DNA from: Chloroflexota bacterium
Lineage (GTDB): Bacteria; Chloroflexota; Limnocylindria; Limnocylindrales; CSP1-4
Reading direction: 5' to 3'
Assembly: GCA_021783595.1 (NCBI GenBank)
Contig: JAJXTS010000007.1
Span: 1-37,771, forward strand
DNA length: 37,771 nt
Below, in pieces: positions 8,987 through 31,608 of the stretch (within the stretch, counting starts at the first letter, position 1; each line of letters starts with the position of its first letter). Position numbers and translations under genes: made by a program. The notes beneath the pieces were generated by a model, which was not told the DNA's origin, ran no database searches, and worked only from the letters and a program-made list of their open reading frames with translations.

Positions 8987-9898
8987 CTAGGTCCGCGCCG
9001 AGCCGGGGCGCCGCCGCGGGTAGAGGTAGTCCACGCCGGCGGTCCGCGGCCCGAGCTTGGCGATCGGCGGGACCTGGCGCTTGAACTCGGCGCCCGCGAC
9101 CATCCGGTCCACCCGATCCACCAGCGTCCGGTCGAACCCCATGGCGACCAGCTCGTCCGCGCTGCGCCGCCGGTCCACCCGCCAGAACAGGACGCGGTCC
9201 AGGACCGGGTAGCTGAAGCCGGCCTCCGTCTCGTCGGTCTGGCCCGGCCACAGGTCGGCCGACGGCGCCTTGCGGATCACCGCCTCCGGGACGCCCAACG
9301 CCGCCGACAGCTGCCGGATCTGGCTCTTGTAGAGGTCGCCGATCGGGTTGAACGCGCAGGCGGAGTCGCCGAACAGCGTCGTGTAGCCGATCAGCGACTC
9401 GGTCTTGTTGCCCGTGCCGACGACGAGGCCGCCCCAGGTGACGGAGCGGTCGTACAGGGTGGCCATGCGCATCCGGGCCATGAAGTTGCCGCGCCGCAGC
9501 GCGGACGCCTCGAGACCGTCGGCCCCGCCCGCCCCGGGGACGCCGCCCGCGCCGAAGTAGCCGTCAACCATGGCCGTGATCTCGACCAGCTCCGACGCGC
9601 AGCCGAGCGCCGCGACCACGGCCTCGGCATCGCCCCGCGAGGCGGGCGAGGACGTTCGGTACGGCATCATCACGCACAGGAGGCGCTCCGGGCCGATGGC
9701 CTCGGCCACCAGGAACGCGACGAGCGCCGAATCGATCCCGCCCGACAGCCCGAGCACCGCGCGCTCGAACCCAGCCTGGCGCAGCTGGCCGCGGATGAAC
9801 TCCGCGATCACCCGGCGGGCGACGCCCGTGTCGATCGCGAGCTCGGGGGGCAGGTCGAACATGGGCTCGGGGTCGATCGGCCCCCTGCCGCCGCTCAC
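8987..9898 (-). CDS. nadE: NAD+ synthetase (ATP-pyrophosphatase domain only)
   Basis: VLGLSGGIDSALVAFLVAEAIGPERLLCVMMPYRTSS...VVGTGNKTESLIGYTTLFGDSACAFNPIGDLYKSQIRQLSAALGVPEAVIRKAPSADLWPGQTDE. A GTG start at 9898 gives a 4-nt overlap with the upstream gene; ATG at 9862 is an alternative. Confidence 0.92.
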   Translation of the reverse strand: MSGGRGPIDPEPMFDLPPELAIDTGVARRVIAEFIRGQLRQAGFERAVLGLSGGIDSALVAFLVAEAIGPERLLCVMMPYRTSSPASRGDAEAVVAALGCASELVEITAMVDGYFGAGGVPGAGGADGLEASALRRGNFMARMRMATLYDRSVTWGGLVVGTGNKTESLIGYTTLFGDSACAFNPIGDLYKSQIRQLSAALGVPEAVIRKAPSADLWPGQTDETEAGFSYPVLDRVLFWRVDRRRSADELVAMGFDRTLVDRVDRMVAGAEFKRQVPPIAKLGPRTAGVDYLYPRRRPGSART

Positions 9899-10779
9899 CG
9901 CCCGCCGCCCTCGGATAGGCCCGCCCGGCCCGCCGCGAGGCGGCCCCACTCCCGCGCGACCAGCTCCGGCCGCTCGTCGCGCAGCAGCGGCAGCGCGATC
10001 CGCTCCCGCCGCACGTCGCCGAGGTCGATGTCGCAGGTGAACAGACCCTCCTCGAACATCGGCGCCACGAACGCTGGCGAGCCTGTCGGGCCGATGACCT
10101 CGGACCCGCCCCAGAAGGACAGCGACTCGTCCACGCCCACGCGGTTGCAGAACACCACGAACGATGTCGTCAGCTGGGCGTACGTGCGCATCAGCGTCCG
10201 CCAAGAGGAAGCGGTCCCGAGCCCCACCTCGTGGGTCGAGGCGAGGTCGCGCCCGGGCGACGAGCTCACGTTGACCAGCAGGTGGGCCCCGTCCATCGCG
10301 AGGACCTGCGGCACCGACACGTGCCAGAAGTCCTCGCACACGGCCAGGCCCAGGCCCACGCCCAGCCGCGAGGGCGTCGCGCGCACGGTGTCGCCCGGCG
10401 CGAAGAACCGGCGCTCGTCGAACAGCCCGTAGGTGGGCAGGAAGACCTTGCGGTGGACATGCCTGACCGCGCCGTCCTCGAGCAGGGCCGCGGCGATGAA
10501 CAGGCGGTGGTCCCCGGACTCCTCCACGAACGAGACGACGACCGACGTCCCGCGGGCGGCGTCCGCCAGCCCCAGGATGCGCGGGTCGTCGGGACGCATG
10601 GCGACGTCCGCCGCCAGGTCCTGCAGCTGGTAGCCGGTGAGCCCGAGCTCCGGGAAGACGACGAGGCCGGCGCCCCGGTCGCGGGCGGCGGCGATCAGCT
10701 CGTGGTGGCGCGCGAGGTTGGCCTCGAGGTCCCCGAGGCGCGGCGCGATCTGGGCGAGGGCGATCCGGAGCGGTTGCAC
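9895..10779 (-). CDS. Nitrilase/carbon-nitrogen hydrolase, probable glutaminase partner of NadE
   Basis: VQPLRIALAQIAPRLGDLEANLARHHELIAAARDRGAGLVVFPELGLTGYQLQDL...HRKVFLPTYGLFDERRFFAPG...GLAVCEDFWH. Glu (FPEL), Lys (HRKVFLP) and Cys (VCEDFW) match the nitrilase-superfamily triad. GTG start at 10779. Confidence 0.88.
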   Translation of the reverse strand: MQPLRIALAQIAPRLGDLEANLARHHELIAAARDRGAGLVVFPELGLTGYQLQDLAADVAMRPDDPRILGLADAARGTSVVVSFVEESGDHRLFIAAALLEDGAVRHVHRKVFLPTYGLFDERRFFAPGDTVRATPSRLGVGLGLAVCEDFWHVSVPQVLAMDGAHLLVNVSSSPGRDLASTHEVGLGTASSWRTLMRTYAQLTTSFVVFCNRVGVDESLSFWGGSEVIGPTGSPAFVAPMFEEGLFTCDIDLGDVRRERIALPLLRDERPELVAREWGRLAAGRAGLSEGGGR

Positions 10780-10789
10780 GCCGCCGAGT

Positions 10790-11947
10790 CTAGGCCCCCT
10801 GCGCCGCCGGCGCGGCCGACCGGGGGTTGCCGGCCGGCGCCCACGACGGAGCCACGGCGGCCGAGGCGCCGCCCTGCCCGGCGGACTGGCGCTGCTCGGG
10901 CGAGCCGTCAACCTCCTCGGCGAAGTGGCAGGCCACGGCATGCCCTGCCGACAGCTCCCGCAGCTGCGGGTCCTCGACGGTGCACCGTTCCGGGTTCCCC
11001 AGCCGCTCCCGGAGCCAGCAGCGGGTGTGGAACCGGCAGCCCGAGGGCGGGTTGGCCGGCGAGGGGACGTCGCCGCGGAGGATGATCCGGCGCCGGCGCG
11101 ACTCGACCGCCGGGTCCGGGATCGGGATGGCCGACAGCAGCGCGACCGTGTAGGGGTGCAGCGGCGCCTGGTTGAGGTCCCGCGACGGCGCCAGCTCCAC
11201 GATCCGGCCCAGGTACATCACCGCGGTGCGGTCGCTGATGTGGCGCACCACGGACAGGTCGTGGGCGATGAACAGGTAGGTCAGCCCGAGCTTGTCCTGG
11301 AGCCGCTCGAGCAGGTTGATGATCTGCGCCTGGATCGAGACGTCCAGCGCGCTGATCGGCTCGTCGGCCACGATCAGCTCGGGGTTCACCGCCAGGGCCC
11401 GGGCCACGCCGATGCGCTGGCGCTGCCCGCCCGAGAACTCGTGCGGGTAGCGGACCCCGAACTCGGGATTGAGGCCCACCACGCCGAGCAGCTCCCGCAC
11501 GCGCTCGCGGCGTTCGTGCGGCGTCCCGATCTTGTGGATCTCGAGGGGCTCGCCGACGATCCCGGCGACGTTCATCCGCGGGTTGAGGGACGAGTAGGGG
11601 TCCTGGAAGACCATCTGCATCCGGCGGCGCATGCGGCGGAGCTGGTCACCGCCCAGCGTCGTGATGTCCACACCGTCGAACTCGATTCGCCCGCTGGTGG
11701 GACGGTAGAGGCGCACGATCGCCCGCCCCGTCGTGCTCTTGCCGCACCCGGACTCCCCCACCAGACCCAGCGTCTCGCCGCGGCGCAGCTCGAAGCTGAC
11801 GCCGTCCACCGCGCGGACGTCGCCCACGTGGTGCTCGAACACCAGGCCCTCGGTGATCGGGAAGTACATCCGCAGGTCGTCGACGCGGAGCAGCGGGCCG
11901 TCCAGCTCCGCGGGGCGCGCCGCCCCGGCATTCCGCGCCAGGCTCAC
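10790..11947 (-). CDS. Oligo/dipeptide ABC transporter ATP-binding protein (OppF/DppF-like), cassette 1
   Basis: Walker [17 protein letters not shown]-loop [12 protein letters not shown], signature [16 protein letters not shown], Walker [14 protein letters not shown]-terminal [16 protein letters not shown]...CHFAEE (PF08352-type domain). Confidence 0.93.
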
Positions 11948-13098
11948 CGGCGTCCCTCCCGCGCGTCGTTCGTGGGGAACTCAACCAGGGTCCCCTCCAG
12001 GTCGGGGGCCGCGACGGCCAACTCGTCGAACACGGCGTCCGGCGGCGGCGCGGCCACGAACCCGGGCCGGGTCGGCCGCCCCGTCCGAGCCTCCTCGGGC
12101 AGCGGCGGGTTGTGGCAGGCGATCTGGTGGGTCGCGCCCGGCCCGGTGGCGACGACCGTGCTGACGGGCTCGAGGGGCACCAGCGGCGGGTTGTCGGTCC
12201 AGCATGCCTCCACGCGCCAGGCGCAGCGGGGCGCGAACGGGCAGCCGACCGGGGCGCGGCGCTGGTCCGGCGGCACGCCCTCGATCGGCACCAGCTCGCC
12301 GCCCTCGTCGGCGTCCACCCGGGGGATGGAGTGCAGCAGCCCCACGGTGTAGGGGTGCGAGGGGCGGGCGAAGAGCTCGGGCGTGGGCGCGGTCTCGACG
12401 ATGAACCCCGCGTACATCACGTTGATCCGCTCGGCCATCCCCGCGACCACGCCGAGGTCGTGGGTGATCAGGAGCACCGCCGTCCCGAGCCGCGCCGTGA
12501 GGTCCTGGAGCAGCTCGAGGACCTGCGCCTGGATCGTGACGTCGAGCGCGGTCGTCGGCTCGTCGGCGATTAGGAGCTTGGGCTCCAGAGCCAGTGCCAT
12601 CGCGATCATGACGCGCTGCCGCATGCCCCCGCTGAACTGGTGCGGGTAGCTGCGCAGGCGCGTCTCCGGGTGCGGGATGCCCACCATCCCCAGCAGCTCG
12701 ACCGCCCGCTTGCGCGCTTCGGCGCGGCTGGCCGCCCGGTGGGCGACGATCGTCTCGACCATCTGCTCCTCGATGGTCAGCACCGGGTTCAGGCTCGTCA
12801 TCGGGTCCTGGAAGATCATCGCGACGTCGCGGCCGCGCATCTCGCGGACGTCCGCCTCGGGCAGCGCGACGAGGTTTACCCCGTCGAGCGTCACGCTGCC
12901 GCGCTCGATCCGGCCCGCCGGCTTGGGCAGCAGGCGCATGATCGCGAGGTTGGTCACGCTCTTGCCACAGCCGGATTCGCCCACCAGACCGAGCGTCTCG
13001 CCCGCCTCGAGGTTGAACGTGATGCCGTTGACCGCGTAGATCGTCCCGTCGTGGGTTCGGAACCGGACCACCAGGTCCCGGACTTCTAGCAGGGCCAT
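11944..13098 (-). CDS. Oligo/dipeptide ABC transporter ATP-binding protein (OppD/DppD-like), cassette 1
   Basis: [60 protein letters not shown]...[42 protein letters not shown] at 13098. Confidence 0.93.
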
Positions 13099-13994
13099 CA
13101 GCGCCGCAGCCTCGGGTCGAGCGACTCCCGGAGCCCGTCGCCCAGCAGGTTGAAGCCGATCGCGCTGATGACGATCGCGATGCCCGGGAAGAAGATGAGG
13201 TACGGGGCCTCGCGCAGGTACTTGGTCGAGTCGGTGAGCATCGTGCCCCACTCGGCCGTCCGCGGGTCGGGCGGCCCCAGCCCCAGGAAGCCGAGGCCGG
13301 CCACGTCGATGATGGCCGTGGCGAGGGCCAGCGTCGCGGCCACGATCAGCGAGGTGAGGGCGTTCGGCAGCATGTGCCGCAGGAGCAGGCGGAGCGGCGT
13401 GGCGCCGATTGAGCGGGCGGCGACCACGAAGTCCGCCTCGCGGAGCGCGAGCAGGCTGCCCCGCAGGATCCGGGCGAAGATCGGGGCGTTGGTCATGCCC
13501 ACGGCGAGCATGATCTGCGGCAGGCCGCGGTCCAGCCAGGCGACGATCCCGATCGCGAGCAGGATGCCCGGGATCGCGAGCAGCACGTCCACCATGCGCA
13601 TGAGCACGTTGTCCACCGCCCCGCCGAAGGCGCCTGCGATGGCGCCCAGCGTGCCGCCGATGGCGAGGCCCATGATGACCGAGATGACGCCGACCTGGAG
13701 GCTGATCCGGGCGCCGTACAGGATGCGGGTCAGCTCGTCGCGACCCTGGAGGTCCGTCCCCAGCACATGGCCGGCGGTGCCCGGCGCCTGGAGGCGGTTG
13801 GCCAGGGACCCCGCGATCGGGTCGTAGGGCGAGATGACGGGCGCGAGCACGGCCGCCAGCACGAACACCACGATGAAGAACATGCCGAGCAGCGCCGGGC
13901 CGTTCCGCGTGAGCCGGGCCAGGGCGTCGCGCCACAGGCCGCGGCTGGCGCGAGCCGGCGCGGTCCTGCGGGCGGGGGTAGCGGTAGCCGTCAT
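13098..13994 (-). CDS. Oligo/dipeptide ABC transporter permease (OppC/DppC-like), cassette 1
   Basis: MTATATPARRTAPARASRGLWRDALARLTRNGPALLGMFFIVVFVLAAVLAPVISPYDP...HVLGTDLQGRDELTRILYGARISLQVGVIS...GFNLLGDGLRESLDPRLRR. ATG at 13994, TGATG overlap with the next gene. Confidence 0.93.
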   Translation of the reverse strand: MTATATPARRTAPARASRGLWRDALARLTRNGPALLGMFFIVVFVLAAVLAPVISPYDPIAGSLANRLQAPGTAGHVLGTDLQGRDELTRILYGARISLQVGVISVIMGLAIGGTLGAIAGAFGGAVDNVLMRMVDVLLAIPGILLAIGIVAWLDRGLPQIMLAVGMTNAPIFARILRGSLLALREADFVVAARSIGATPLRLLLRHMLPNALTSLIVAATLALATAIIDVAGLGFLGLGPPDPRTAEWGTMLTDSTKYLREAPYLIFFPGIAIVISAIGFNLLGDGLRESLDPRLRR

Positions 13995-14998
13995 CAGGCG
14001 TACCGGATCCGCGGGTTGAGGTAGGCGTAGCCGATGTCCACGATGAGGTTCACCGCCAGGAAGATGAAGGCGAAGATGAGGATCGACGACTGCACCACGA
14101 AGTAGTCGTGGTCCTGGATGGCCTCCACCACCCACCGGCCGACGCCGTTCCAGGAGAACACCGTCTCGGTGATGACGGCACCCGCCAGCAGGCCCCCGAC
14201 CTGGAGTCCGATGACCGTCACGACGGGCAGCCACGCGTTGCGCATGATGTGGCGGTCGTCCACCCGGCGCTCGGTGAGGCCCTTGGCGCGGGCCGTCCGC
14301 ACGTAGTCCTCGTTGTTCACGTCCAGGACCGACGCCCGCGTGATCCGGGTGATGATCGCGAGCGGGATCGAGCCCAGCGCGATGGCCGGCAGGATGAGGT
14401 GCCGCAGCGCGTCCACGAACGCGTCGGGCCGGCCGGCCAGCAGCGTGTCGATGAGCATGAAGTTCGTCACGCTCGGGATCGTGGTCCGCGGATCGAGCCG
14501 CCCGGACGTGGGCAGCCAGTGCAGCTGCACCGAGACGACGTACTGGAGCGTGAGGCCGAGGACGAAGATCGGGATGGAGATCCCGAACAGCGAGATGACC
14601 GTGACCACGCCGTCCTGCCATCCCTGCGTGTGCCGGGCCGCGAACCGCCCGAGCGGGATGCCGATCCCGACCGCGAACACGAGCGCCGCGAGGGTGAGCT
14701 CCACGGTGCCCGGGAAGCGGTTGGCGAAATCGGTGATCACGGGCCGGTTGTTGATGACGCTCTTGCCCAGATCCCCGTGCAGGAGCTGGGTCAGGTACTG
14801 GAGGTACTGGACGTAGAGCGGCTGGTCGAGGCCGAGCTGCTGGCGGATCTTGGCCGTCAGCTCCGGCGTCGCGTGCTGGCCGAGCAGCGCCGCGGCGGGG
14901 TCGCCGGGCAGCAGGTGGATGAAGGAGAACAGCACGATCGACAGCCCGAACAGGACCGGGATGGCGCTGAGGATCCTTCGGACGATGTACTTGGCCAC
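13994..14998 (-). CDS. Oligo/dipeptide ABC transporter permease (OppB/DppB-like), cassette 1
   Basis: MAKYIVRRILSAIPVLFGLSIVLFSFIHLLPGDPAAALLG...DYVRTARAKGLTERRVDDRHIMRNAWLPVVTVIGLQVGGLLAGAVITETVFSWNGVGRWVVEAI. Confidence 0.94.
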   Translation of the reverse strand: MAKYIVRRILSAIPVLFGLSIVLFSFIHLLPGDPAAALLGQHATPELTAKIRQQLGLDQPLYVQYLQYLTQLLHGDLGKSVINNRPVITDFANRFPGTVELTLAALVFAVGIGIPLGRFAARHTQGWQDGVVTVISLFGISIPIFVLGLTLQYVVSVQLHWLPTSGRLDPRTTIPSVTNFMLIDTLLAGRPDAFVDALRHLILPAIALGSIPLAIITRITRASVLDVNNEDYVRTARAKGLTERRVDDRHIMRNAWLPVVTVIGLQVGGLLAGAVITETVFSWNGVGRWVVEAIQDHDYFVVQSSILIFAFIFLAVNLIVDIGYAYLNPRIRYA

Positions 14999-15025
14999 GG
15001 GCGCTGGGTCGCTCCACTCGCGAGA

Positions 15026-15053
15026 GGCCCCTCGGTGCGATAGCCGAGGGGCC
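15026..15053. other. Perfect 10-bp inverted repeat between the cassette 1 SBP and permease genes
   Basis: GGCCCCTCGG-8 nt-CCGAGGGGCC in the gap 14999-15114; no U-tract on the minus strand, so attenuation or an mRNA-stabilising hairpin rather than a full terminator. Confidence 0.7.
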
Positions 15054-15114
15054 CCTGCTTGCCTCGATCAGGTGGGCTGGGCCGACCGCCGGGGGTCCGG
15101 GGCCGGCCCGACCG

Positions 15115-16872
15115 TCACTTGTTGAGCCAGGTCGTGTTGAACTGCTCCTCGAGGTTGCCGCTGCCGACGAACCCCTGGACGTACGCGGCCGCCGCTGCCG
15201 GCGGGGTGGAGTTGAGGATCGGGATGATCGGGAGGTCGCGGGCGAGGATGTCCTGCGCCGTGCTCCACGCCTGCTGCGCGGCCGCGGTGGTGGTCGCCGA
15301 GATGCCGGCGTCGAAGGCGGCCTTGAGGTCAGCCGGCCCGTAGTTGAACTGCGGGTTGGGCTTGGAGCCGTTGAAGTAGAACAGGTCCGTGACCAGGAAG
15401 TTGTCCGGGCCGGCCCAGTCGCAGGTCCAGCCGAGCAGGTCCATGGGGAACTTGCCGACAGACGAGTCGGACAGGTAGCCCGTCCGCCAGCCCTCGGTCT
15501 TGAAGGTGATCGTGAAGCCCACCGCCTGCAGGTCGTTCGCGATCGCCTCGGCCAGGCCCTTCGGGTCCGGCATGTACGGGCGCGAGACGTCCGACGGGTA
15601 GTAGAAGGTCAGGTTGAGCTGGCTGGCCGGCACGCCGGACGAGGCGATCAGGCTCTTGGCCTTCGCCGGGTCGTAGGTGGGCAGGTTCAGCGGCTTGTAG
15701 AACTCGGTGCTGGGCGGCATGAAGTTGTCAGCCACCTTCGCCATGCCCGCGTAGAACGCGTCGATGTACGACTGCTTGTTGAGCGCGTACCCGATGGCCT
15801 GGCGGATCTGAAGGTTGTCGAACGGCTTGTCGGCATCGTTCAGCGAGAGGTGGAACTCGTTGCACGACTGGCCGCGGTCGATCACCTGGAGGCTGGAGTC
15901 CGACTGGACGGTCTTGACGTCGGTCGGCGAGATCGTCTGGGCCCAGTCGATGTCACCCGCCTGGAGCGCGTTGAGCTCGGCGGTCTGGTCGGCGTAGGGC
16001 TTGAACGTGATCGCGTCGAGGTGCGCCGCGTTGGCGGTGTCCCAGTAGTTCGGGTTCTTGACCAGCGTGACGTGGTCGTTGGGGACCCACTCCTTGAACA
16101 TGAACGGCCCCGTGCCGACCATGCTCTTGCCGGTGCCGCCCTGGCCCTGCGCGTACGGGCTCTTGGACGGGTCGGGGTTGTCCGCGTCGCCAGCCTTGAG
16201 CGCCGTGGGGCTCTGGATGCCGAACTGCGGCAGGGTGGTCGCGAGCAGGAAGTTGCTCTGCGGCGTCTTGAGCTTGAACACCACGGTGGACGCGTCGGTC
16301 GCCGTCACCGAGGCCAGGTTGGAGTCCGCGCCGAAGCCGAACACCGCGCCGAAGTAGTAGTTGTAGTCGTTCTGCAGCGACTTGGGCGCGTTCAGCTGCC
16401 GGGTGTAGTTGTAGACGACGGCGTCGGCGTTGAAGTCCGTGCCGTCGTGGAACTTGACGCCCTGGCGCAGGGTGAAGGTGTAGGTCAGGCCGTCAGCGCT
16501 CACGGTGGGCAGCGCGGAGGCGAGCACCGGGACGAGTTCGCTGTTGGTGCCGGGCTTGAGGCCCACCAGGCCCTGGATGACCTGGCCCTCGATCTCCGAC
16601 GAGTTGCTGTCGCTCACCAGCGACGGGTCAGCGAGGACCATGTCCCCGGGAAGCCCGGCGACGAGCGTGCCGCCGTCCTTGGGCGTGCTCGCCGCGGCGC
16701 TCGCCGCGGCGCTGGGTGCCGTGCTCGGCGCGGTGCTTGCCGCAGTGCTGGCCGCGCTCGACGGCGCGGCGCTCGACGCCGCGCTGGGTGCTGGGGTGGC
16801 CGACGAGCCGCCGCAGGCGGCGACCACGATCATGGTCGCTGCGACCAGCGCCCCGAATCGGGTACGGGTCAT
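15115..16872 (-). CDS. Family-5 extracellular solute-binding lipoprotein (peptide ABC transporter SBP), cassette 1
   Basis: Signal MTRTRFGALVAATMIVVAAC lipobox, Ala/Ser/Thr/Pro linker, GGTLVAGLP...QGLVGLKPGTNSELVPVLASALPTVSADGLTYTFTLRQGVKFHDGTDFNADAVVYNY...GTGPFMFKEWVPNDHVTLVKNPNYW. Confidence 0.94.
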   Translation of the reverse strand: MTRTRFGALVAATMIVVAACGGSSATPAPSAASSAAPSSAASTAASTAPSTAPSAAASAAASTPKDGGTLVAGLPGDMVLADPSLVSDSNSSEIEGQVIQGLVGLKPGTNSELVPVLASALPTVSADGLTYTFTLRQGVKFHDGTDFNADAVVYNYTRQLNAPKSLQNDYNYYFGAVFGFGADSNLASVTATDASTVVFKLKTPQSNFLLATTLPQFGIQSPTALKAGDADNPDPSKSPYAQGQGGTGKSMVGTGPFMFKEWVPNDHVTLVKNPNYWDTANAAHLDAITFKPYADQTAELNALQAGDIDWAQTISPTDVKTVQSDSSLQVIDRGQSCNEFHLSLNDADKPFDNLQIRQAIGYALNKQSYIDAFYAGMAKVADNFMPPSTEFYKPLNLPTYDPAKAKSLIASSGVPASQLNLTFYYPSDVSRPYMPDPKGLAEAIANDLQAVGFTITFKTEGWRTGYLSDSSVGKFPMDLLGWTCDWAGPDNFLVTDLFYFNGSKPNPQFNYGPADLKAAFDAGISATTTAAAQQAWSTAQDILARDLPIIPILNSTPPAAAAAYVQGFVGSGNLEEQFNTTWLNK

Positions 16873-17069: not shown

Positions 17070-18905
17070 ATGACCCCGCCCCGCCGTCCTGCCGTGCTGC
17101 TCGCGGTTGCGCTGCTCGCAACGGGCGCCTGCGCACCCGCGCCGACGGCGACCGACTCGCCGCTCCCGAGCGGGTCGGCCGCCACCCCGGCGTCCACGCC
17201 GCCCCCGAGCGACATCCCCTTCGCGCCCGTCGCCTGGCCCGTGTCGGGAAGCGCCTGCGGGACCCCCGGCGCCGGCGGGCGGATCGCGCGCATCGAGGCG
17301 CCGGACGCCAAGACCGTGGTGTTCACGCTGTGCGCGCCCGACGGGGCGTTTCTCGCGCGCCTGGCCAACCCGGCCATGGGCATCGTGGACGCGGCCCAGC
17401 TGGCGCGGATCGCCGCGGACCCGGGCGCGGCCCGGGACGTTGCCGGGCACGGCGGGTACCGCGTGACCGCGTGGGGGTCCGACAACGTCCAGCTCGGGCG
17501 GGTCGGGGCCGCCTCGCCGAGCGCCGTCGAGCCCACCGTCATCCTTCGCTGGGCTGCCGACCCGGCCGCCCGGACGGAGGACCTGGTCAACGCATCCGTG
17601 GACGGCATCGACGCACCGACCGCGGCCGGGCTGACGACGGCGGCCGTGACGCCGTCGCTCGCGGTCGTGCCTCGCCACCTCCTGGCGACGGCGCTGCTCG
17701 GCTTCGGGAAGGGAGCGCCGTTCTCGGATGCGCGCGTGCGGCGCGCGATCGCGGCTGGCATCGACACCGGCAGCCTCGCCGCCGGTGCGTTCCCGGCCGG
17801 TTCCGTCGCAGCCGACCACCTCGTGCCCTGCGAGATCCCGGCGGGCTGCGCGGGGAGCCCCTTCGCGAGCTTCAACGGCCCCGCGTCGACGGCGGCGCTC
17901 CAGGGGCTCAAGTTCAACTTCGACACGTCCTACACCCTGACCGTCCCGGATGCGCCGATCCCGGGCCTGCCGGACCCGTCCGGCGTCGGCGCGGCCATGG
18001 TCGCGCAGCTCGCGGCGAACCTCGGGATCACCGCCACCGTCCAGACGATGCCCGCCGACCAGTTCCGCGCGGCGGTGGACGGCGGCTCGCTGGCCGGCCT
18101 GTACCTCGACGGGGTGGCCGCGGCGCTCGCCGACCCGTCGGCGTTCTACGGGCCGCTGTTCCTCGACCGGCCCGCGAGCCTGGCGGCCCGGCGCGCCGGT
18201 GCCGCGGCCGCCAGCCTGACCGCCGCTGCGTCGAGCGCCGATCCCGCGACCCGCGAGGCCGCCTACGCGGCGGCCGCCACCTCGCTGCGCACCAGCGTGC
18301 CGGTGGCGCCGCTCGCGCACCCCGGCGGGGCGGCCGTGTTCCAAGCCGATGTCAAGGGCGCCGCCACCTCGCCGTTCGGCGCTGACCCGCTGGGGGCCAT
18401 GACGGCAGCCGACCGCGGGCAGGTCGTGTTCGAGCAGGCGGCGGCGCCGGCGGGCGGCTGGTGCGGGATGCAGGCCTCGGCGGATGCCATCCGCCTGTGC
18501 GCGCTGGTCACCGACGGCCTCTACGGCTACGCCCCGGGCTCGCTCGACCCCACGCCCATCCTGGCGACGGGATGCACGCCGAACGCGGACGCGACCGTCT
18601 GGACCTGCCGCCTGCGCACGGAGCGCACCGGCGACGGGCTGCTGCTGGACGCCGCCGACGTGGTGGCCACCTTCCGGGCCATGGCCGACCCGGCCGACCC
18701 GGTCCACCTGAGCCTGGGCGATGGCGCCTTTTCCGCCTTCGCGGGGATCTTCGGCGCAGCCTCGGGCGCGTTGCCCGTCCCCTCGCCGGCGCCATCGCCG
18801 ACGCCCTCGGGATCGGGCGCCGCCGCCGGGAGTCCGTCCGGACCGCCGTTCGCGCCGACGCCCTCAGGCGCCGGGGCAGGCGCGCCGACGACGGCCGCGC
18901 CGTAG
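17070..18905 (+). CDS. Putative circularly permuted family-5 solute-binding lipoprotein (orphan)
   Basis: MTPPRRPAVLLAVALLATGACAPAPT signal; ATG at 17070 with AGGAG upstream. SBP_bac_5-like blocks occur in rotated order: APDAKTVVFTL..., GHGGYRVTAWGSDNVQLGR, FSDARVRRAIAAGIDTGS..., VAPLAHPGGAAVFQADVKG..., and only then the canonical N-terminal block ALVTDGLYGYAPGSLDPTPILATGCTPNADATVWTCRLR...DAADVVATFRAMADP. Pro/Ser/Gly/Ala-rich tail at the C-terminus. Confidence 0.82.
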   Translation: MTPPRRPAVLLAVALLATGACAPAPTATDSPLPSGSAATPASTPPPSDIPFAPVAWPVSGSACGTPGAGGRIARIEAPDAKTVVFTLCAPDGAFLARLANPAMGIVDAAQLARIAADPGAARDVAGHGGYRVTAWGSDNVQLGRVGAASPSAVEPTVILRWAADPAARTEDLVNASVDGIDAPTAAGLTTAAVTPSLAVVPRHLLATALLGFGKGAPFSDARVRRAIAAGIDTGSLAAGAFPAGSVAADHLVPCEIPAGCAGSPFASFNGPASTAALQGLKFNFDTSYTLTVPDAPIPGLPDPSGVGAAMVAQLAANLGITATVQTMPADQFRAAVDGGSLAGLYLDGVAAALADPSAFYGPLFLDRPASLAARRAGAAAASLTAAASSADPATREAAYAAAATSLRTSVPVAPLAHPGGAAVFQADVKGAATSPFGADPLGAMTAADRGQVVFEQAAAPAGGWCGMQASADAIRLCALVTDGLYGYAPGSLDPTPILATGCTPNADATVWTCRLRTERTGDGLLLDAADVVATFRAMADPADPVHLSLGDGAFSAFAGIFGAASGALPVPSPAPSPTPSGSGAAAGSPSGPPFAPTPSGAGAGAPTTAAP

Positions 18906-18988: not shown

Positions 18989-20044
18989 CTAGCCGACGCG
19001 CAGCGCCCCGGTCAGGCCGTCGGCGGCGGCAGGGACGGTCGTCTGCACGGGCGGCCTGGCGACCGGGAAGTGGCAGGCGACGAAGTGCCCGTCCTCCAGT
19101 TCGCTGAGGGGCGGGACCTCGCGGCTGCACCGCTCCTGAGCCTGGTAGCAGCGGGTCCGGAACACGCACCCCGACGGCGGGTTGATCGGGCTCGGAAGAT
19201 CCCCTTCGAGCATGATCCGAGATCGCCGCTTCTGCAGGCTGGGGTCCGGGATGGGCACCGCCGACAGCAGGGAGTGCGTGTACGGGTGCAGCGGCGCGGT
19301 GTAGATGGTCTTCCGCGGCGCCGACTCCATGATCTTGCCGAGGTACATGACCGCCACGCGGTGCGAGATCTGGCGGACCACCGCGAGGTCATGGGCGACG
19401 AACAGGTAGGAGATCCCGAACTCCTGCTGCAGGTCGCGCAGCAGGTTCACGATCTGGGCCTGGATCGACACGTCAAGGGCGGAGACCGGCTCGTCGCACA
19501 CGATCAGCTTCGGCCGCAGCGCAATAGCGCGCGCGATCCCGATCCGCTGCCGCTGGCCGCCCGAGAACTCGTTCGGGTAGCGGTTGTAGTGCTCCGGGTT
19601 CAGCCCGACCCGCTCCATCAGCTCGGCGACGGCGGCCTTGACGCCGCCCGGCGGGACCACATTCTGGATCTTGAACGGCGCGGAGATGATCGTCCCCACC
19701 GTGTGGCGAGGGTTCAGCGCGTTGTACGGGTCCTGGAAGATCATCTGTGCCTTGCGGCGCACCGGCACCAGCGCGCTCGGCGCCAGCCGCGTGATGTCCT
19801 GCCCGTCGAGCTCGATCGTGCCGCTCGTCGGATGGGCGAGCAGGAGGATCGACCGCGCGACCGTCGTCTTGCCAGAACCGCTCTCGCCCACCAGGCCCAG
19901 GGTCTCACCCGGCCCAATGTGCAGGCTGACGCCGTCGACGGCCTTGACCTGGCCAATGACACGCGGGATCAGGCCGCTGGAGCGGACCGGGAAGTACGTG
20001 CGCAGGTCGGTTACCTTGAGGATGTCGCCGCGCTCGGCCGTCAT
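18989..20044 (-). CDS. Oligo/dipeptide ABC transporter ATP-binding protein (OppF/DppF-like), cassette 2
   Basis: GLVGESGSGKTTVARSILLLAHPTSGTIELDGQDI...MIFQDPYNALNPRHTV...[44 protein letters not shown]...INPPSGCVFRTRCYQAQERC. Confidence 0.93.
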   Translation of the reverse strand: MTAERGDILKVTDLRTYFPVRSSGLIPRVIGQVKAVDGVSLHIGPGETLGLVGESGSGKTTVARSILLLAHPTSGTIELDGQDITRLAPSALVPVRRKAQMIFQDPYNALNPRHTVGTIISAPFKIQNVVPPGGVKAAVAELMERVGLNPEHYNRYPNEFSGGQRQRIGIARAIALRPKLIVCDEPVSALDVSIQAQIVNLLRDLQQEFGISYLFVAHDLAVVRQISHRVAVMYLGKIMESAPRKTIYTAPLHPYTHSLLSAVPIPDPSLQKRRSRIMLEGDLPSPINPPSGCVFRTRCYQAQERCSREVPPLSELEDGHFVACHFPVARPPVQTTVPAAADGLTGALRVG

Positions 20045-21099
20045 GCCGCGCCTCCCGCCAGAACGCGGAGCAGGTCCTGCGCGATCTGCTGGCGCTCCTC
20101 GCTGGGCAAATGGCAGCGGACGAGGTGGTCTGGCGCCGCGTGGAGTAGTTCCGGGCGGGCGCTCGCGCAGGCGCCGCCCGGCACGCGGTCCACATACTTG
20201 CAGCGCGGCGCGAACACGCAGCCGGGCGGCAGTCGGATCGGCGAGGGCGGGTTGCCGGGGATGGGCTCGAGTCGCATTGACACGTCGCGGTCCATGCGCG
20301 GCACCGAGGAGAGCAGGCCCAGCGTGTACGGCATCTCGGGCTGGTGGTAGAGCACGCTGGTCGGAGCGACCTCGACGATCCGGCCGCCATACATGACCGC
20401 CACGTCATCGGCCACGTCGGCCACGATGCCGAGGTCATGCGTGATCATGATCACGGTGATCTGGAACTCGCTCTGCAGGCTGCCGATCAGGCCCAGGATC
20501 TGTGCCTGGACCGTGACGTCCAGGGCGGTGGTCGGCTCGTCGGCGATCAGCAGGGCGGGCTTGTTGATCAGGGCCATCGCGATCATCACGCGCTGTCGCA
20601 TACCACCGGACAGCTGGTGCGGGTAGTCGTCGATCCGCCGTTCCGCCGCCGGGATCCCAACGCGCTGCAGCATCTCCAGGGCCTCGGCCCGGGCCGCCTT
20701 GGCACCGACCGAGCGGTGGGCGAAGATCGCCTCCGTGATCTGGGCGCCAACCCGGTAGAAGGGGTGGAGGCTGGACATCGGGTCCTGGAAGATCATGGCG
20801 ACCTGCGACCCGCGCAGCGCCTGCATCTCATCGGCGGGGAGGCCGATCAGCTCCTGCCCGTCGAGCCAGATCTCGCCCGTCATCCTGGCGGCCTTGCGGT
20901 CGATGAGGCCCATGATGGCCTGTGCGGTGACGCTCTTGCCGGACCCGGACTCGCCCACGATCGCGAGCGTCTTCCCCTTCTCGACAGAGAACGACACGTC
21001 GTCGACCGCCTGCACCAGGCCATCCTCAGTCGGGAAGGCCACCGACAGGTTCTTGACGGACAGCAGGGGCGGCTCGACCGCCCGCGCGGGGCTCGTCAT
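20041..21099 (-). CDS. Oligo/dipeptide ABC transporter ATP-binding protein (OppD/DppD-like), cassette 2
   Basis: MTSPARAVEPPLLSVKNLSVAFPTEDGLVQAVDDVSFSVEKGKTLAIVGESGSGKSVTAQAIMGL...MIFQDPMSSLHPF...[36 protein letters not shown] at 21099. Confidence 0.93.
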   Translation of the reverse strand: MTSPARAVEPPLLSVKNLSVAFPTEDGLVQAVDDVSFSVEKGKTLAIVGESGSGKSVTAQAIMGLIDRKAARMTGEIWLDGQELIGLPADEMQALRGSQVAMIFQDPMSSLHPFYRVGAQITEAIFAHRSVGAKAARAEALEMLQRVGIPAAERRIDDYPHQLSGGMRQRVMIAMALINKPALLIADEPTTALDVTVQAQILGLIGSLQSEFQITVIMITHDLGIVADVADDVAVMYGGRIVEVAPTSVLYHQPEMPYTLGLLSSVPRMDRDVSMRLEPIPGNPPSPIRLPPGCVFAPRCKYVDRVPGGACASARPELLHAAPDHLVRCHLPSEERQQIAQDLLRVLAGGAA

Positions 21100-22088
21100 G
21101 CGATGGTCACGCGTGGATCGAGGAACGCATACAGCAGGTCGACCACGAGGTTGGCGAAGATGATGAGGGTTGACGAGAACAGGGTGATGCCCGTGATCAG
21201 CGGCAGGTCCGACTGCAGCACCGAGTTGACCGCCAGCGACCCCAGTCCGGGGAGGCTGAAGATGCTCTCCGTGATCACGGCGCCGCCCAGGAGGGCCGCG
21301 AGGTCCATGCCCGCCGCCGTCACCAGGGGCGTGAGGCCGGCCCGCAGGGCGTGCTTCACGACGATGGTCCGTTCTGGGAGCCCCTTGGCGCGGGCCGTCC
21401 GCACGTAGTCCTCGTGGAACGTCTCCAGCACCTGGTTGCGGGTGAGGCGCATGTAGAACGCCGTGTTTAGGAACGCGAGGACGATCCACGGCAGGATCAT
21501 CGTCTTGAGGAAGCCCACTGGGTTTACAAACGGCGACACGTAGGCCGGGAACGGCAGCCAGTTGAATTTGAGGATGACGAAGAAGATCAGCAGCAGGCCG
21601 ATGAAGAACGACGGTAAGGAGTAGCCCACAAGGGAGATGCCCATCACGAGGCGATCGGGCCAGCGCCCGTGGTTGAGCGCGGCGAATATCCCCAGCAGGA
21701 TCGAGATGGATATCCAGACCACGAATGCCCCGACGGCAAGCCAGAAGGTCACCGGCGCCGCGTTGAGGATCATCGTGAGCACCTGCTGGTGCCGCGAGTA
21801 CGAGTAGCCCAGGCACGGCGCGTTGCACACGATGGGCTGCGGGGAGTCGGACGAGAAGGTTCGCCCGAAGAAGATGCCGCCAAGGAACTGCCCGTACTGC
21901 GTCAGGATGGGCTGGTCGTAGCCCAGGCGATGACGGTTCGCCTCGATGACCGAGGGGCTGCACGCCTTGCCGCAGGTCAGCCGGGCCGGATCGCCGGGCA
22001 GCATGTTGAACAGGAAGAACACCGCGGCCGTCAGCGCGAACAGCAGCGCGACCATCAAGAGGAGCCGGCGAATGGTGTAGGCGACCAC
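21096..22088 (-). CDS. Oligo/dipeptide ABC transporter permease (OppB/DppB-like), cassette 2
   Basis: MVAYTIRRLLLMVALLFALTAAVFFLFNMLPGDPARLTCGKACSP...DYVRTARAKGLPERTIVVKHALRAGLTPLVTAAGMDLAALLGGAVITESIFSLPGLGSL. Confidence 0.93.
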   Translation of the reverse strand: MVAYTIRRLLLMVALLFALTAAVFFLFNMLPGDPARLTCGKACSPSVIEANRHRLGYDQPILTQYGQFLGGIFFGRTFSSDSPQPIVCNAPCLGYSYSRHQQVLTMILNAAPVTFWLAVGAFVVWISISILLGIFAALNHGRWPDRLVMGISLVGYSLPSFFIGLLLIFFVILKFNWLPFPAYVSPFVNPVGFLKTMILPWIVLAFLNTAFYMRLTRNQVLETFHEDYVRTARAKGLPERTIVVKHALRAGLTPLVTAAGMDLAALLGGAVITESIFSLPGLGSLAVNSVLQSDLPLITGITLFSSTLIIFANLVVDLLYAFLDPRVTIA

Positions 22089-22187
22089 GCTTGGTTGTTC
22101 TTCCTAGTGGGGGGATCGATTTCCGGGGGCGGCGGCGCCGCCCCCGGCAATCGGGTTTGTCCGTGTGCTAGCGATGCGCGGTGGCGG

Positions 22188-24041
22188 CTACTTCACGTAG
22201 ACGTCGCCGTACGGGTTGGACCCGTAGGGGCCCCAGATGTAGAGCCCGCCGTTGGCGCCGGTGCCGGTCGCCAGGCCGCTGCCCATGATCAGGGACGCCT
22301 TGCCGAACAGCGTGGGGATGGCCCACACCTTCTGCATCGCCTCGGTGTTGAGCGCCTGCCAGTCCTTGGCCTGGGTGGGCCGGTCGGTCTCGGCGTTCGC
22401 GGCGGCGACAGCCGTATTGAAGGTCGGGTCGTTGGCCTGGGACAGGTCCCAGCCGCCCTTCACGGTGAACAGGGGCGGGATGACAGTCGAGGCGTTCGGC
22501 CAGTCAGCACCCCAGCCGCCGATACCGAAGTCGCCCGCCTTCTTGGGGTCGAACACGGTGCTGTAGTAGTTGCCGGGGGGGATGGGCGCCAGGTTGACCG
22601 TGAAGCCGGCCGCCTGGAGCGAGGCCTGAACCGCGGCCGCGATCTTGCCGTAGGTGGGGGTGTCCGCGTAGTTGAAGGTGAGGGTCGGCGCAGCGGCGCC
22701 GGACTGGCTGATCAGCTGCTTGGCGAAGGCCGGGTCGCCCCCGTCGGGGATCGCCTGGCCGAACATCGTCGTCCACATGTTGGTCGGGGCGTAGTCCATG
22801 CCCAGGTTGGGCTTGATCACGCCGTCCGCCAGGTCGCCCACGAACTCGCCGCCGGCGATCTTGCGGTAGGACGCCCGGTCGAGCGCGACCGCCATGGCCT
22901 CGCGGATCTTCTGGTTGGTGATCTTCTGGACGTTGATCCAGATGTACCGGGCGTACGGGTCATAGCCGTTGACGACGCGTCCCGCGTACTGCGGCTGGGC
23001 CGTGTTCGGATCGACGAACACTGTGGCCAGGTCCTGCGGCATGATCCCGCCGTACATGAGGGCGGTCTGGTCGTTGCCCGTGCTCTGGATCATCCGCTGG
23101 TCCATGACCTGCGGGTCGAGCCCGAAGTCGACCTCCCACTGGTCCGGGTAGGGATGGCGGTACGGGTCGCTCGCCTGGCTCCAGTTGGGGTTCCGGACGA
23201 GGATCATCTTGCCGCCGTTGCCGGTCTGGTAGCTCTGGACCTCGTACGGCCCGGAGGCGACCGGCGGCTTCGCCACGCCGTAGCTCTCGCCCGTGTCGGC
23301 GGCCTTGGGGACCGGCGAGAAGCCGAGGGTCACGGTGTAGTTGAAGTCAGCGACCGGCTGATTGAGGTTGAACGTGATCGTCTTGTTGTCGGCGGAGCAG
23401 GTCACAGCCTTGTCGAACAGGGCCTGCTGGGCTGCGGTCGCCTTGTAGGGGCCGGGGTACTGCGACGAGCCGTCCTTGTTGGACGGGATGTCGAGGTACT
23501 GGATGGCGTACGTCGGGCCGCCGGAGATGACGTCGGTTGCGAACGTCCGGGAGGTGCCGTACTTGACGTCGGCACACGTGATGGGCGAGCCGTCCTGGAA
23601 GGTGACGCCGTCACGCAGGGTGAAGGTCCAGGTCTTGGCGCCGTTGCTCGGGGTGCCGAGGTCGGTGGCCAGGTCCGGCGTCAGCTGCGACGCCTTGGTG
23701 TTGTCCGGCGAGATCGTGTACGCCTCGAGCGACCGGTAGATCGTGGCCTGGAAGAAGGCCATGTCCTCGCCGGTGTACGCGCGCTGCGGGTCGACCTGGT
23801 CGAACTGCTGCGCCTGGGTCAGCAGATACACCGTGCCGCCCGACTTGGGGCCGGACGCGGCGGCCGAGGCGCTCGGAGCCGTCGAGGCCGCGGCGCTCGG
23901 CGCCGTCGAGGCCCCGGTGCTCGGCGCCGTCGAGGCGGGCGGAGCGGAGGTCGCTGACGACCCGCCGCAGGCTCCCGCCACGAGCGCGACCACCGCGCCG
24001 AGGGACGCGATGCGCGACCACCGTGTGGTCAAACCACCCAT
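22188..24041 (-). CDS. Family-5 extracellular solute-binding lipoprotein, cassette 2
   Basis: MGGLTTRWSRIASLGAVVALVAGACGGSS lipobox, STAPS linker, SGGTVYLLTQAQQFDQVDPQRAYTGED...TWTFTLRDGVTFQDGSPITCADVKYG...VASGPYEVQSYQTGNGGKMILVRNPNW. Confidence 0.93.
   Translation of the reverse strand: MGGLTTRWSRIASLGAVVALVAGACGGSSATSAPPASTAPSTGASTAPSAAASTAPSASAAASGPKSGGTVYLLTQAQQFDQVDPQRAYTGEDMAFFQATIYRSLEAYTISPDNTKASQLTPDLATDLGTPSNGAKTWTFTLRDGVTFQDGSPITCADVKYGTSRTFATDVISGGPTYAIQYLDIPSNKDGSSQYPGPYKATAAQQALFDKAVTCSADNKTITFNLNQPVADFNYTVTLGFSPVPKAADTGESYGVAKPPVASGPYEVQSYQTGNGGKMILVRNPNWSQASDPYRHPYPDQWEVDFGLDPQVMDQRMIQSTGNDQTALMYGGIMPQDLATVFVDPNTAQPQYAGRVVNGYDPYARYIWINVQKITNQKIREAMAVALDRASYRKIAGGEFVGDLADGVIKPNLGMDYAPTNMWTTMFGQAIPDGGDPAFAKQLISQSGAAAPTLTFNYADTPTYGKIAAAVQASLQAAGFTVNLAPIPPGNYYSTVFDPKKAGDFGIGGWGADWPNASTVIPPLFTVKGGWDLSQANDPTFNTAVAAANAETDRPTQAKDWQALNTEAMQKVWAIPTLFGKASLIMGSGLATGTGANGGLYIWGPYGSNPYGDVYVK
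23871..23941. repeat. About three copies of a 24-bp imperfect tandem repeat inside the SBP linker coding sequence
   Basis: Units GCTCGGAGCCGTCGAGGCCGCGGC / GCTCGGCGCCGTCGAGGCCCCGGT / GCTCGGCGCCGTCGAGGCGGGCG encode ASTAPSxx repeats. Confidence 0.8.
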
Positions 24042-24156
24042 GGAAACTCCTCCTCCAAGGTCAGGGGCGCCGGTTGGCCGGACGCCTTTCGAAGATCCTA
24101 CACGCGAGGTACGAGACTTGTACGCAGTGTGCGCGCCTCACTTCGAGGATCTAAGG

Positions 24157-25086
24157 CTAGTGGACTCCCTTCGGATCCAGCGCGTCGCGGAGGGAGTCAC
24201 CCAACAGGTTGAATGACACGACCAGGATGACCAGCGCGGTCCCGGGGATGAACAGGTAGGTCGGGACCACGTTGACGTAGGTGACCGAGTTGGCGAGCAT
24301 CGAGCCGAACGTGACATCCGGGGGCAGGACGCCGACCCCGAGGAAAGACAGCGCGGCCTCGAGCCCGATGTAGTTGGGCAGCGTCAGGGTGGCGTAGACG
24401 AGGATCGGCGCCCACAGGTTGGGCAGGATTTCCGAGAACAGGATCCGCCGCCGCCCGGCGCCCATGGCGACGGACGCCTCGACGAACTCGCGCTCCCGCA
24501 GGCTCAGGACCTGGCCCCGGACGATGCGGGCGAGGTACGGCCAGCCGAAGAAGCTCATGACCAGGATCAGGTACAGGATGCGCGAGGCGTTGCCCTCCGG
24601 CACCCCGAGCTGCGTCAGCCGCTGGGTGAGCACGCCGGACAGCGACATCACGATGAGCAGGAACGGGAACGCGAGGATGAGGTCCATCAGGCGGCCCAGG
24701 AAGTTGTCGGTGACGCCGCGGCTGTAGCCGGCGACGATCCCGATCACCACCCCAAGCACGACGGTCATGAGCGTCGCCACGGTGGAGATCACGAGCGAGA
24801 TCCGCAGTCCGAACAGGAGCTGGGCGAGGATGTCGCGCCCGGTCCCCCACTCGACGCCGAGCGGGTGGGCCGCGCTGATCCCGCCGTACGCCGCGATCGG
24901 CTTGCCGCCCATCTCGCTGATGAGGTCAGGGTGCAGGGTGTACGGCGAGTCGTTCAGGATGCCGGCCACGACCGGGCCCAAGATGCCGATCAGGTAGTAG
25001 ACCACGAGGATGACCAAACAGATCATCGCAACGCGGTCCCGGCGAAGGCGGGCCCAGATGATTTCGCGGAGGCTTCGGCCGACCAT
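24157..25086 (-). CDS. Oligo/dipeptide ABC transporter permease (OppC/DppC-like), cassette 2
   Basis: MVGRSLREIIWARLRRDRVAMICLVILVVYYLIGILGPVVAG...HPLGVEWGTGRDILAQLLFGLRISLVISTVATLMTVVLGVVIGIVAGYSRG...SFNLLGDSLRDALDPKGVH. Confidence 0.92.
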   Translation of the reverse strand: MVGRSLREIIWARLRRDRVAMICLVILVVYYLIGILGPVVAGILNDSPYTLHPDLISEMGGKPIAAYGGISAAHPLGVEWGTGRDILAQLLFGLRISLVISTVATLMTVVLGVVIGIVAGYSRGVTDNFLGRLMDLILAFPFLLIVMSLSGVLTQRLTQLGVPEGNASRILYLILVMSFFGWPYLARIVRGQVLSLREREFVEASVAMGAGRRRILFSEILPNLWAPILVYATLTLPNYIGLEAALSFLGVGVLPPDVTFGSMLANSVTYVNVVPTYLFIPGTALVILVVSFNLLGDSLRDALDPKGVH

Positions 25087-25155: not shown

Positions 25156-26318
25156 CTAGGGCTCGGCTGTCACCGTCGGCCCAGACGACGCCACGGCACT
25201 CGCGACGGCCTCCGGGCTGATCTCCTCGGCGAAGTGGCAGGCCGACTCCTGGCCGCTGCCGAGAGCCCGCAGCACGGGCTCCTCGGTGGTGCACCGCTCC
25301 GGGCGGCCGAGCTGCTCGCGCAACCAGCACCGGGTGTGGAACCGGCAGCCGGAGGGCGGGTTCGCCGGCGACGGGATGTCGCCCTTGAGGATGATCCGCT
25401 TCTTGCGCCGGTGGGGGTCCGGCTCGGGCACCGCGGACAGGAGGGCCACGGTGTAGGGGTGCCGCGGGTTGGCGTAGATGTCGTCCACGTTCGCCATCTC
25501 GACGAGCTTGCCCAGGTACATCACGCCCACCCGGTCGCTGATGTGCTCGACGACCGCGAGGTTGTGCGCGATGAACAGGTAGGTGAGGCCCAGCTCGGCC
25601 TGCAGGTCGTTGAGCAGGTTGAGGACCTGGCTCTGGATCGACACGTCGAGGGCGGACACCGGCTCGTCGCACACGATGAAGGCGGGGTGCAGGGCGAGGG
25701 CCCGGGCGATGCCGATGCGCTGCCGCTGGCCGCCGGAGAACTCGTGCGGGTAGCGGTGGATGTGGCTCTGGTTGAGCCCCACCCGGCCCAGCATGTCCCG
25801 GACGAGCGCCTCGCGCTCCTTCTTGTCGGTCATGCCGTGGACGAGCGGTCCCTCGCCGACGAGCTCGCCCACGCTCATGCGCGGGTTGAGGCTGGCGTAC
25901 GGGTCCTGGAACACGACCTGCATGTTTTGGCGGACCTTCTTCATCGCCTCGTTGCTGGCGTAGACGGGCCGGCGGCGCGGCTCGCCGCGGGCGGGAATGT
26001 CGAACAGGACCTGCCCGTCCATCTCCACGCGTCCCGACGTCGCCGGGAGCAGCCGGAGGATGACCTTGCCGAGCGTCGTCTTGCCGCAGCCTGATTCGCC
26101 GACGAGCCCGAGCGCCTCGCCGCGCCGGACGCTGAAGCTGACGCCGTCCACGGCCTTCACGGCGCCGACGCGGGACATGCCCAGCAGGCCGCCGCGGATC
26201 TCGAAGTGCTTGACGAGGTTGTCCACGCGGAGGAGCGTGTCCGGGGCGACCGCGCCGGCCACCCCCGGGGCGACCGCGGGCGACGAGGGCGTCAGGGTGT
26301 TGGGGGCTCGCGTCTCGG

Positions 26319-26322
<4 letters not shown>
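25156..26322 (-). CDS. Oligo/dipeptide ABC transporter ATP-binding protein (OppF/DppF-like), cassette 3
   Basis: [10 protein letters not shown]...[62 protein letters not shown]...[16 protein letters not shown]...[16 protein letters not shown]...[28 protein letters not shown] at 26322, 4-nt overlap with the upstream gene. Confidence 0.93.
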
Positions 26323-27383
<1,061 letters not shown>

Positions 27384-27386
27384 CGA

Positions 27387-28331
27387 CTAGGCCTCGAGCT
27401 TCTGGCGCGGGTCGAGCGCGTCCCGGAGGCCGTCGCCGACGAAGCTGGCGGCGAGGACGACGAGGATCAGCGTGATCCCGGGGTAGTAGATCCACAGCGG
27501 CTGGCGGTAGAAGTAGTCCTGCGCCGCGGTGAGCATGTTGCCGAGGCTCGCGTCTGGGTCTCGGATGCCGTAGCCGAGGAACGACAGCGCCGCCTCGGTG
27601 ACCACCGCGTCCGCGATGCCCAGGGTCGCCGCCACGAGGACGGGCGCCATCGCGGACGGGACCATGTGGCGGATGATGATCCGCGAGTCGCTGGCGCCGA
27701 GCGCCTTGGCCGCCTGCACGAAGTCCGACTCGCGCAGGCGCAGGAACTCCGCCCGCACGAGCCGGGCGGCGGTCGTCCAGCCCGTGATGCCGATGGCGAT
27801 GATGATCACCATCATCGGCGGCACGATCCCGCCGATGAACGCGACCAGCATCAGGATCAGGAAGAAGCCCGGCAGCGACAGCACGATGTCCACGACGCGC
27901 ATCATCACGTTGTCGACGAGGCCGCCGGCGTAGCCGGAGATCGAGCCGAACGTGGTGCCGATGAGCGTGATGATCAGGACGGCGAAGAAGCCGATGATCA
28001 GCGACGTCTGGAGGCCCTTGGTCAGGCGGAAGAAGATGTTCCGGCCCAGATTGTCGTAGCCCAGCGGGGCGTCGATTGACACGGGATCCGTCGGGTGGTG
28101 GACCAGGCTCGTCCTGTACCAGGCGTCGCCGCCCACCATCGGGAACACGATCGCCGAGAACACGAGGAATGCCAGCAGCACCAGTCCGATGACCGCGGTG
28201 CGGTTGCGCAGGAAGCGCCGGCGAACCAGCTGCCAGTAGGTCTGGACGGCGACGAGGTCAACCTCGTCCGTGTCGGTCGAGGTGCTGGTGGGGCCGGCCG
28301 CGCCGGAGCGGATGCTCTCCGAGCTCGCCAC
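27387..28331 (-). CDS. Oligo/dipeptide ABC transporter permease (OppC/DppC-like), cassette 3
   Basis: [41 protein letters not shown]...[68 protein letters not shown]. Confidence 0.92.
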
Positions 28332-28344
28332 GGATCTTGCCCTC

Positions 28345-29307: not shown

Positions 29308-29462
29308 CGACTTCGATGCCTCGCTAAACGCAGTGTCCGACCCAGGCTGCCGCTTGGAAGCGGCCGGTCAAGGGGAGAGGGGCGCAAGGTGCGGCACGTC
29401 CGGGGCGGGCCTCGCAGCCCGCCCCGGACGGTTTCGTCACGCGCCTGGGACGCGCCTGCGGC

Positions 29463-31499: not shown

Positions 31500-31576
31500 C
31501 GACCTTCCTCCTCCTGGTTCCTGCCGACCCCTGGGCCGGCAGTGGCTGCCGGGCCTCGATGGGGGGCGGTTGTTCT

Positions 31577-31608
31577 CGTGCGCAGGCGGAACTGCCCGTC
31601 TGCGCACG
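31577..31608. other. Strong inverted repeat at the predicted 5' end of the cassette 3 SBP transcript
   Basis: CGTGCGCAG (31577-31585) and CTGCGCACG (31600-31608) are a perfect 9-bp inverted repeat, extendable inward by about 4 bp with one wobble. Confidence 0.7.

Follow-up and report, generated by a model that had tools for sequence, protein, structure and literature searches.

A probable natural circular permutation in a family of cluster C (SBP_bac_5) binding lipoproteins from Chloroflexota and Actinomycetota

The window, by which we mean the whole stretch of 37,771 nucleotides of Chloroflexota DNA that was analysed, carries three complete, side-by-side Dpp-type ABC operons (10790-16872, 18989-25086 and 25156-31607, all on the minus strand), each with a binding protein (SBP) of canonical organization. 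Between the first two, on the plus strand, lies an uninterrupted open reading frame (17070-18905) that encodes a protein of 611 amino acids with a lipoprotein-type signal. The features of this gene and of its immediate surroundings are the following:

15115..16872, minus strand: canonical SBP of the neighbouring Dpp-type operon (dppBCDF 14998-10790, minus), divergent from the permuted gene and used as the block-order control
17070..17132, plus strand: signal peptide with a lipobox-like end (...LLATGAC) and Cys21 as candidate lipidated residue; Cys21 is aligned in 26/29 relatives
17133..17267, plus strand: Pro/Ser/Thr-rich tether, residues 22-66, with Cys63 near its end; Cys63 is found in 28/29 relatives
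17268..18404, plus strand: block X, the canonical middle and C-terminal part of SBP_bac_5, residues 67-445, placed first (Pfam and block HMMs)
17958..17960, plus strand: Ile297, at the position of the carboxylate-binding Arg383 of DppA, which is lost (alignment)
18123..18125, plus strand: Ala352, at the position of the amine-binding Asp436 of DppA, which is lost (alignment)
18405..18410, plus strand: junction of 2 residues (~446-447) leading from the canonical C-terminus to the canonical N-terminus; the X-Y gap is 1-3 residues in 67/68 members
18411..18761, plus strand: block Y, the canonical N-terminal part of SBP_bac_5, residues 448-564, placed last (Pfam and block HMMs)
18762..18902, plus strand: Pro/Ser/Gly/Ala-rich C-terminal tail, found in close relatives; most family members stop 2-12 residues past block Y
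18989..25086, minus strand: second Dpp-type operon (dppC, canonical SBP, dppB, dppD, dppF), whose dppF is convergent with the permuted gene

The signal peptide and its lipobox-like cysteine are sequence evidence that the protein may be secreted or lipid-anchored. The gene order of the middle operon is unusual and is kept at three other loci (L097, L098 and L155). The canonical SBP of the third operon (29463-31607, minus strand; 714 aa) matches PF00496 in two stretches as well, apparently owing to an insertion of at least 100 residues after the TVVFTL strand. A NAD synthase gene (8987-10339, minus strand) adjoins the Dpp cluster; many relatives likewise have this gene near their permuted-SBP operon.

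The sequence-only reading took the plus-strand gene for an SBP_bac_5 protein with its blocks in rotated order, in a single ORF with its own signal peptide, and the order of the Pfam matches together with a rotation test bore this out. PF00496 (SBP_bac_5) is the only Pfam family that the protein matches, in two stretches (E = 7.8e-25; 88.2 bits, for a gathering cut-off of 32.4). When the two parts were scanned separately, residues 1-449 matched positions 63-363 of the profile and residues 469-611 matched positions 2-55, so that the C-terminal segment is indeed homologous to the N-terminal region of PF00496. All the segments of the profile are thus present, in an order that is not the canonical one. 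Rotating the protein in silico, with block Y placed first, resulted in a single stretch covering positions 2-363 of 368 and raised the score from 88.2 to 97.8 bits; the same operation on a distant orthologue (L007) gave one stretch, 2-365, and 272.8 bits, compared to 262.6 unrotated. The three canonical SBPs of the window, all encoded on the minus strand, align to the permuted-family HMM with their blocks the other way round: in one of them, residues 97-178 correspond to model positions 479-558 and residues 192-583, further on, to positions 75-446. Each block had seemed to be present only once, and neither the separate scans nor the block HMMs found a second N-terminal block in the ORF; Pfam and block HMM scans detected no N-terminal-domain block in the tether (residues 22-66) either. 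A hidden second N-terminal domain upstream was rejected, as no block Y precedes block X in any permuted protein. The boundary between the blocks, first placed at residue ~430, had to be moved to ~446-447. Domain scans display a rotated SBP merely as a two-stretch PF00496 match, which makes the rotation easy to overlook.

In all, 67 further proteins with the rotated order were recovered. A protein search gave close orthologues, with 71% and 70% identity over residues 1-568, in other assemblies of Chloroflexi, as well as the distant, colinear L007, from 'Anaerolineaceae bacterium NAT123'. Whole genomes were sampled in the Chloroflexota and the Actinomycetota. At E < 1e-20, matches were found in 37 of the 107 genomes of the taxonomic family of the window; at the level of its order, an alignment of 19 members (A1) used as query with a threshold of E < 1e-60 gave matches in 44 of 126 genomes. 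Among an even sample of 301 Chloroflexota genomes, 37 had junction-spanning matches above 450 bits and one more had a match truncated at a contig end, while the canonical SBPs of this phylum-wide search stayed below 272 bits and covered only model positions ~75-455, leaving a clear gap between the two groups. In the Actinomycetota, the phylum of Brevibacterium, the permuted protein was present in 3 of 297 genomes; in the order around one of these three it was present in 42 of 119, which argues against contamination. No match was found in the viral contigs searched. Plasmids yielded 3908 records with SBP matches, none of which covered 80% of the permuted query, a weak indication of absence because the long tether makes this cut-off strict.

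Scoring of block order with two separate HMMs, one for X and one for Y, gave X then Y in 68 proteins and Y then X in 46, the only permuted protein with an X-to-Y gap longer than three residues having a gap of 6. A tree that does not depend on block order was obtained by aligning X and Y separately and then joining the alignments (66 permuted and 34 canonical proteins). The 66 permuted proteins form one clade that includes none of the 34 canonical ones, with a support of 0.96 for both blocks together, 0.60 for X alone and 0.76 for Y alone; monophyly is consistent across the block trees and weakly supported per block. The Actinomycetota sequences fall beside L007, inside the Chloroflexota proteins, and this suggests that the permuted SBP was transferred between phyla. 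The block order seen by the HMMs, the rotation test, the 68 homologues sharing order and breakpoint and the monophyly of the group all support a circular permutation of the window protein; the E-values and the recovery of 67 further proteins with the same order rule out chance. Its spread over many families of Chloroflexota and an order of Actinomycetota, usually next to genes for an importer of its own, marks the rotation as ancient and inherited rather than as an error of sequencing. Overall, it is very likely that the gene specifies a cluster C (SBP_bac_5) lipoprotein with a natural circular permutation, from a family rotated once, of which the window copy is a diverged orphan.

Most members of the family have a genomic context that points to their function. 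A dppB homologue lies directly downstream of the permuted gene at 24 of the 28 scorable loci outside the clade of the window copy (the orphan clade) and at 0 of 8 inside it. It is mostly followed by dppC, dppD and dppF, also at the three Actinomycetota loci, and in the taxonomic family of the window this operon is often near a NAD synthase gene. From its position upstream of dppB(CDF), the permuted SBP outside the orphan clade is likely to be the receptor of its own importer. In E. coli DppA, R383 and D436 (full-length numbering) bind the carboxyl and amino ends of the dipeptide, respectively, and the R383D+D436R double mutant shows no binding (PMC12136057). According to an alignment to the Yersinia DppA structure (5f1q), the equivalents of these two residues are the Arg in VVRSYLP and the Asp in GWGADYPD. 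Both residues persist in 57 of the 58 permuted proteins outside the orphan clade, which makes the operon-linked members likely peptide receptors; of the 8 proteins of the orphan clade, none has them.

The window copy, for its part, stands on the strand opposite to the dpp operons and has no permease genes and no DppA-type dppBCDF operon of its own. A similar arrangement is maintained in relatives from the genus. In genome G006 (locus L100), an orphan lies ~4.5 kb from a complete operon of the permuted type, which suggests that the orphan is a duplicate. All eight members of the orphan clade have lost both dipeptide-binding residues, replaced in the window protein by Ile297 and Ala352. By simple pairwise counts, blocks X and Y had dN/dS values of 0.34 and 0.23, respectively, in comparison with L003, and of 0.14-0.31 in comparisons with closer relatives; at dN/dS ~0.3, the window copy is, on these counts, under purifying selection. 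The loss of both residues and of the permease genes, in a gene that is nevertheless under purifying selection, was interpreted as meaning that this protein is probably not a DppA-like dipeptide binder; most likely, it binds another ligand or has another role. The main alternative is slow decay: the orphan position, the lost ligand residues and the added low-complexity tail would also be expected of a relic of the operonic permuted SBP. This is rather improbable, however, in view of the ORF of the same length class found in eight genomes of the clade, of dN/dS values of ~0.14-0.34, of the conservation of all eight family cysteines (see below) and of the maintenance of the locus in the genus. 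A permuted SBP that is sister to the orphan clade (L151:2474-4123, plus strand; also L027) has lost both ligand residues as well and has no dppB downstream.

The site at which the chain was opened could be placed on known structures. A residue-level alignment of an operon-linked member (L026) to 5f1q showed that block Y corresponds to residues 63-150 of the chain and block X to residues 156-530. The cut thus falls near DppA residues 150-156 (full-length numbering), with a segment ending at ~150 and a strand starting at ~156. In SapA, domain Ia consists of residues 35-68, 230-312 and 532-561 and domain Ib of residues 69-229, with an unmodelled loop at 139-162 (PMC8519434); block X begins near residue 170 of the SapA chain (8tv8). 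Together, the 5f1q alignment and these domain limits place the cut within domain Ib and close to a flexible loop; the old termini, which both belong to domain Ia, have been joined.

Eight cysteines are near-invariant among the relatives (C63, C88, C254, C260, C465, C477, C502 and C513) and all eight are kept in the window protein. In the block alignments, the seven that are located within the blocks occur in 60-66 of 66 permuted proteins as against 0-4 of 34 canonical ones; a cysteine near the start of X was found in 66 of the 68 permuted proteins but in only 4 of the 46 canonical ones. Their spacing in the sequence suggests 254-260, 465-477, 502-513 and 63-88 as likely disulfide pairs. A profile search of the PDB matched 106 sequences; the 60 listed are all SBPs of the cluster C class, and the best stretch of each falls inside block X and in no case crosses the junction, so that no permuted cluster C structure was seen among these 60. 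AlphaFold2 gave a pTM of 0.47 and a mean pLDDT of 60.8 for the window protein, from a shallow alignment of 18 rows, some of them canonical fragments, and a pTM of 0.29 for L007, from 6 rows. A Foldseek search with the weak model of the window protein listed cluster C SBPs first, with TM ~0.3.

In the model favoured here, the rotated chain would refold into an ordinary bilobed SBP, the new ends of which would lie in domain Ib, the extra domain specific to cluster C, and would be held there by up to four disulfides. The lipid tether would then leave from domain Ib instead of domain Ia. The operon-linked members would capture peptides through the DppA-type Arg/Asp pair and pass them to their own DppBC, while the window orphan, most likely with a different ligand, would perhaps feed a neighbouring Dpp permease or act as a lipid-anchored sensor. 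The full scheme, in which a family rotated once has its tether on domain Ib, four disulfides holding the fold and an altered presentation to DppBC, and in which one branch exchanged the peptide site for a new ligand or a sensor role, is put forward tentatively, as one that could well turn out otherwise. It is plausible that the moved lipid anchor is the selected feature.

Tandem duplication with loss of both ends is the usual model for such rotations. Here, the rotation most likely arose once, and we infer that the gene was first duplicated in tandem and in frame and then lost its outer ends; none of the sequences examined contains two copies of block Y, as an intermediate would. One could also imagine a fusion of two SBP remnants, with X and Y coming from different genes, since no immediate donor could be pinpointed for either block and the single-block trees have modest branch support. 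Taken together, however, the two blocks make up one SBP with nothing missing and nothing duplicated, and each block tree groups the permuted proteins in a single clade, so that we consider a fusion unlikely; structurally, its outcome would be the same as that of a permutation.

Slightly less likely still is a domain-swapped assembly, in which block Y would complete the X of a neighbouring molecule and the working form would be a dimer or a chain. The X-Y order in one chain permits such a swap, and AlphaFold2, with its shallow alignments, produced no confident monomer model. Against it, the first and last segments of cluster C structures share one domain (domain Ia of SapA, PMC8519434), which is why a junction of 1-3 residues suits folding back within one chain, and the permuted SBP already described, TpMglB-2, behaves as a monomer (PMC4990184). 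An assembly artefact, which the origin of the window in a draft assembly of 258 contigs might bring to mind, was rejected and has a negligible chance of being correct, given that the same X-Y order recurs in dozens of independent genomes from two phyla.

Among the closest known systems is TpMglB-2 (Tp0684), a naturally permuted glucose-binding lipoprotein of cluster B for which the term 'Cluster Bc' was proposed and whose authors speculated that tethering might favour a changed topology (PMC4990184). The likenesses are that both are naturally permuted SBPs of ABC importers and lipoproteins, that the first strands of the N lobe have moved to the C-terminus, that the gene is clustered with its own permease and that the bacterial range is wide (PMC4990184). 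TpMglB-2, however, is a sugar-binding protein of type I, cluster B ('Type Ic / Cluster Bc'), which is permuted in the N lobe and has a fourth hinge in addition, whereas the family described here belongs to another SBP class, cluster C / SBP_bac_5, with the break in domain Ib and a new set of cysteines. Indeed, PF00496 being its sole Pfam match, the window protein does not show the type I / cluster B sugar-binding fold of cluster Bc.

The resemblance to E. coli DppA and DppABCDF (1dpp, 8z1y; PMC12136057) consists of the same Pfam family, aligned over both blocks, and, for operon-linked permuted members, of the dppBCDF operon and the retained R383 and D436 equivalents. Unlike DppA, the permuted proteins have a rotated block order and eight conserved cysteines, and the window copy is without both ligand residues. 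SapA (cluster C, PMC8519434) is of the same family, the break mapping to its domain Ib (69-229) near the unmodelled loop 139-162, but has the canonical order. HbpA2 of the Pasteurellaceae, a DppA-family SBP that no longer has Asp408 (mature numbering) and fails to bind peptides (PMC3295651), offers a parallel to the orphan clade, in which the same Asp is lost; it differs by its canonical order.

Full-text searches of open-access papers turned up no report on natural permutation in cluster C SBPs. Natural circular permutation of an SBP was thus already known, TpMglB-2 of cluster B being the only case found, and the cluster C case is new within that literature. Natural SBP permutations are rarely documented, and this would be a second, independent one, spread over two phyla and conserved in dppBCDF operons. 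Such a case would mean that evolution can rearrange the topology of an SBP while the importer is retained. The family should also make it possible to ask whether a moved lipid anchor is an advantage, as suggested for TpMglB-2, and might serve as a natural scaffold for the design of biosensors, where permuted binding proteins are otherwise hand-made.

A few loci deserve mention for their arrangement. Two tandem permuted SBP genes lie upstream of a single dppBCDF set at L160:7062-10476 (minus strand), and a similar tandem pair is found on contig C341 of G089. At L102:9374-15695, an intact permuted SBP is followed by fragmented dppB, dppC, dppD and dppF pieces and by a second, partial permuted SBP; these fragments are probably sequencing errors or a decaying duplicate. 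Finally, two divergent permuted SBPs without dppB directly downstream (L162:7606-9180 and L163:6736-8259; 43% and 36% identity, respectively, to the reference used) possibly represent further orphan branches.
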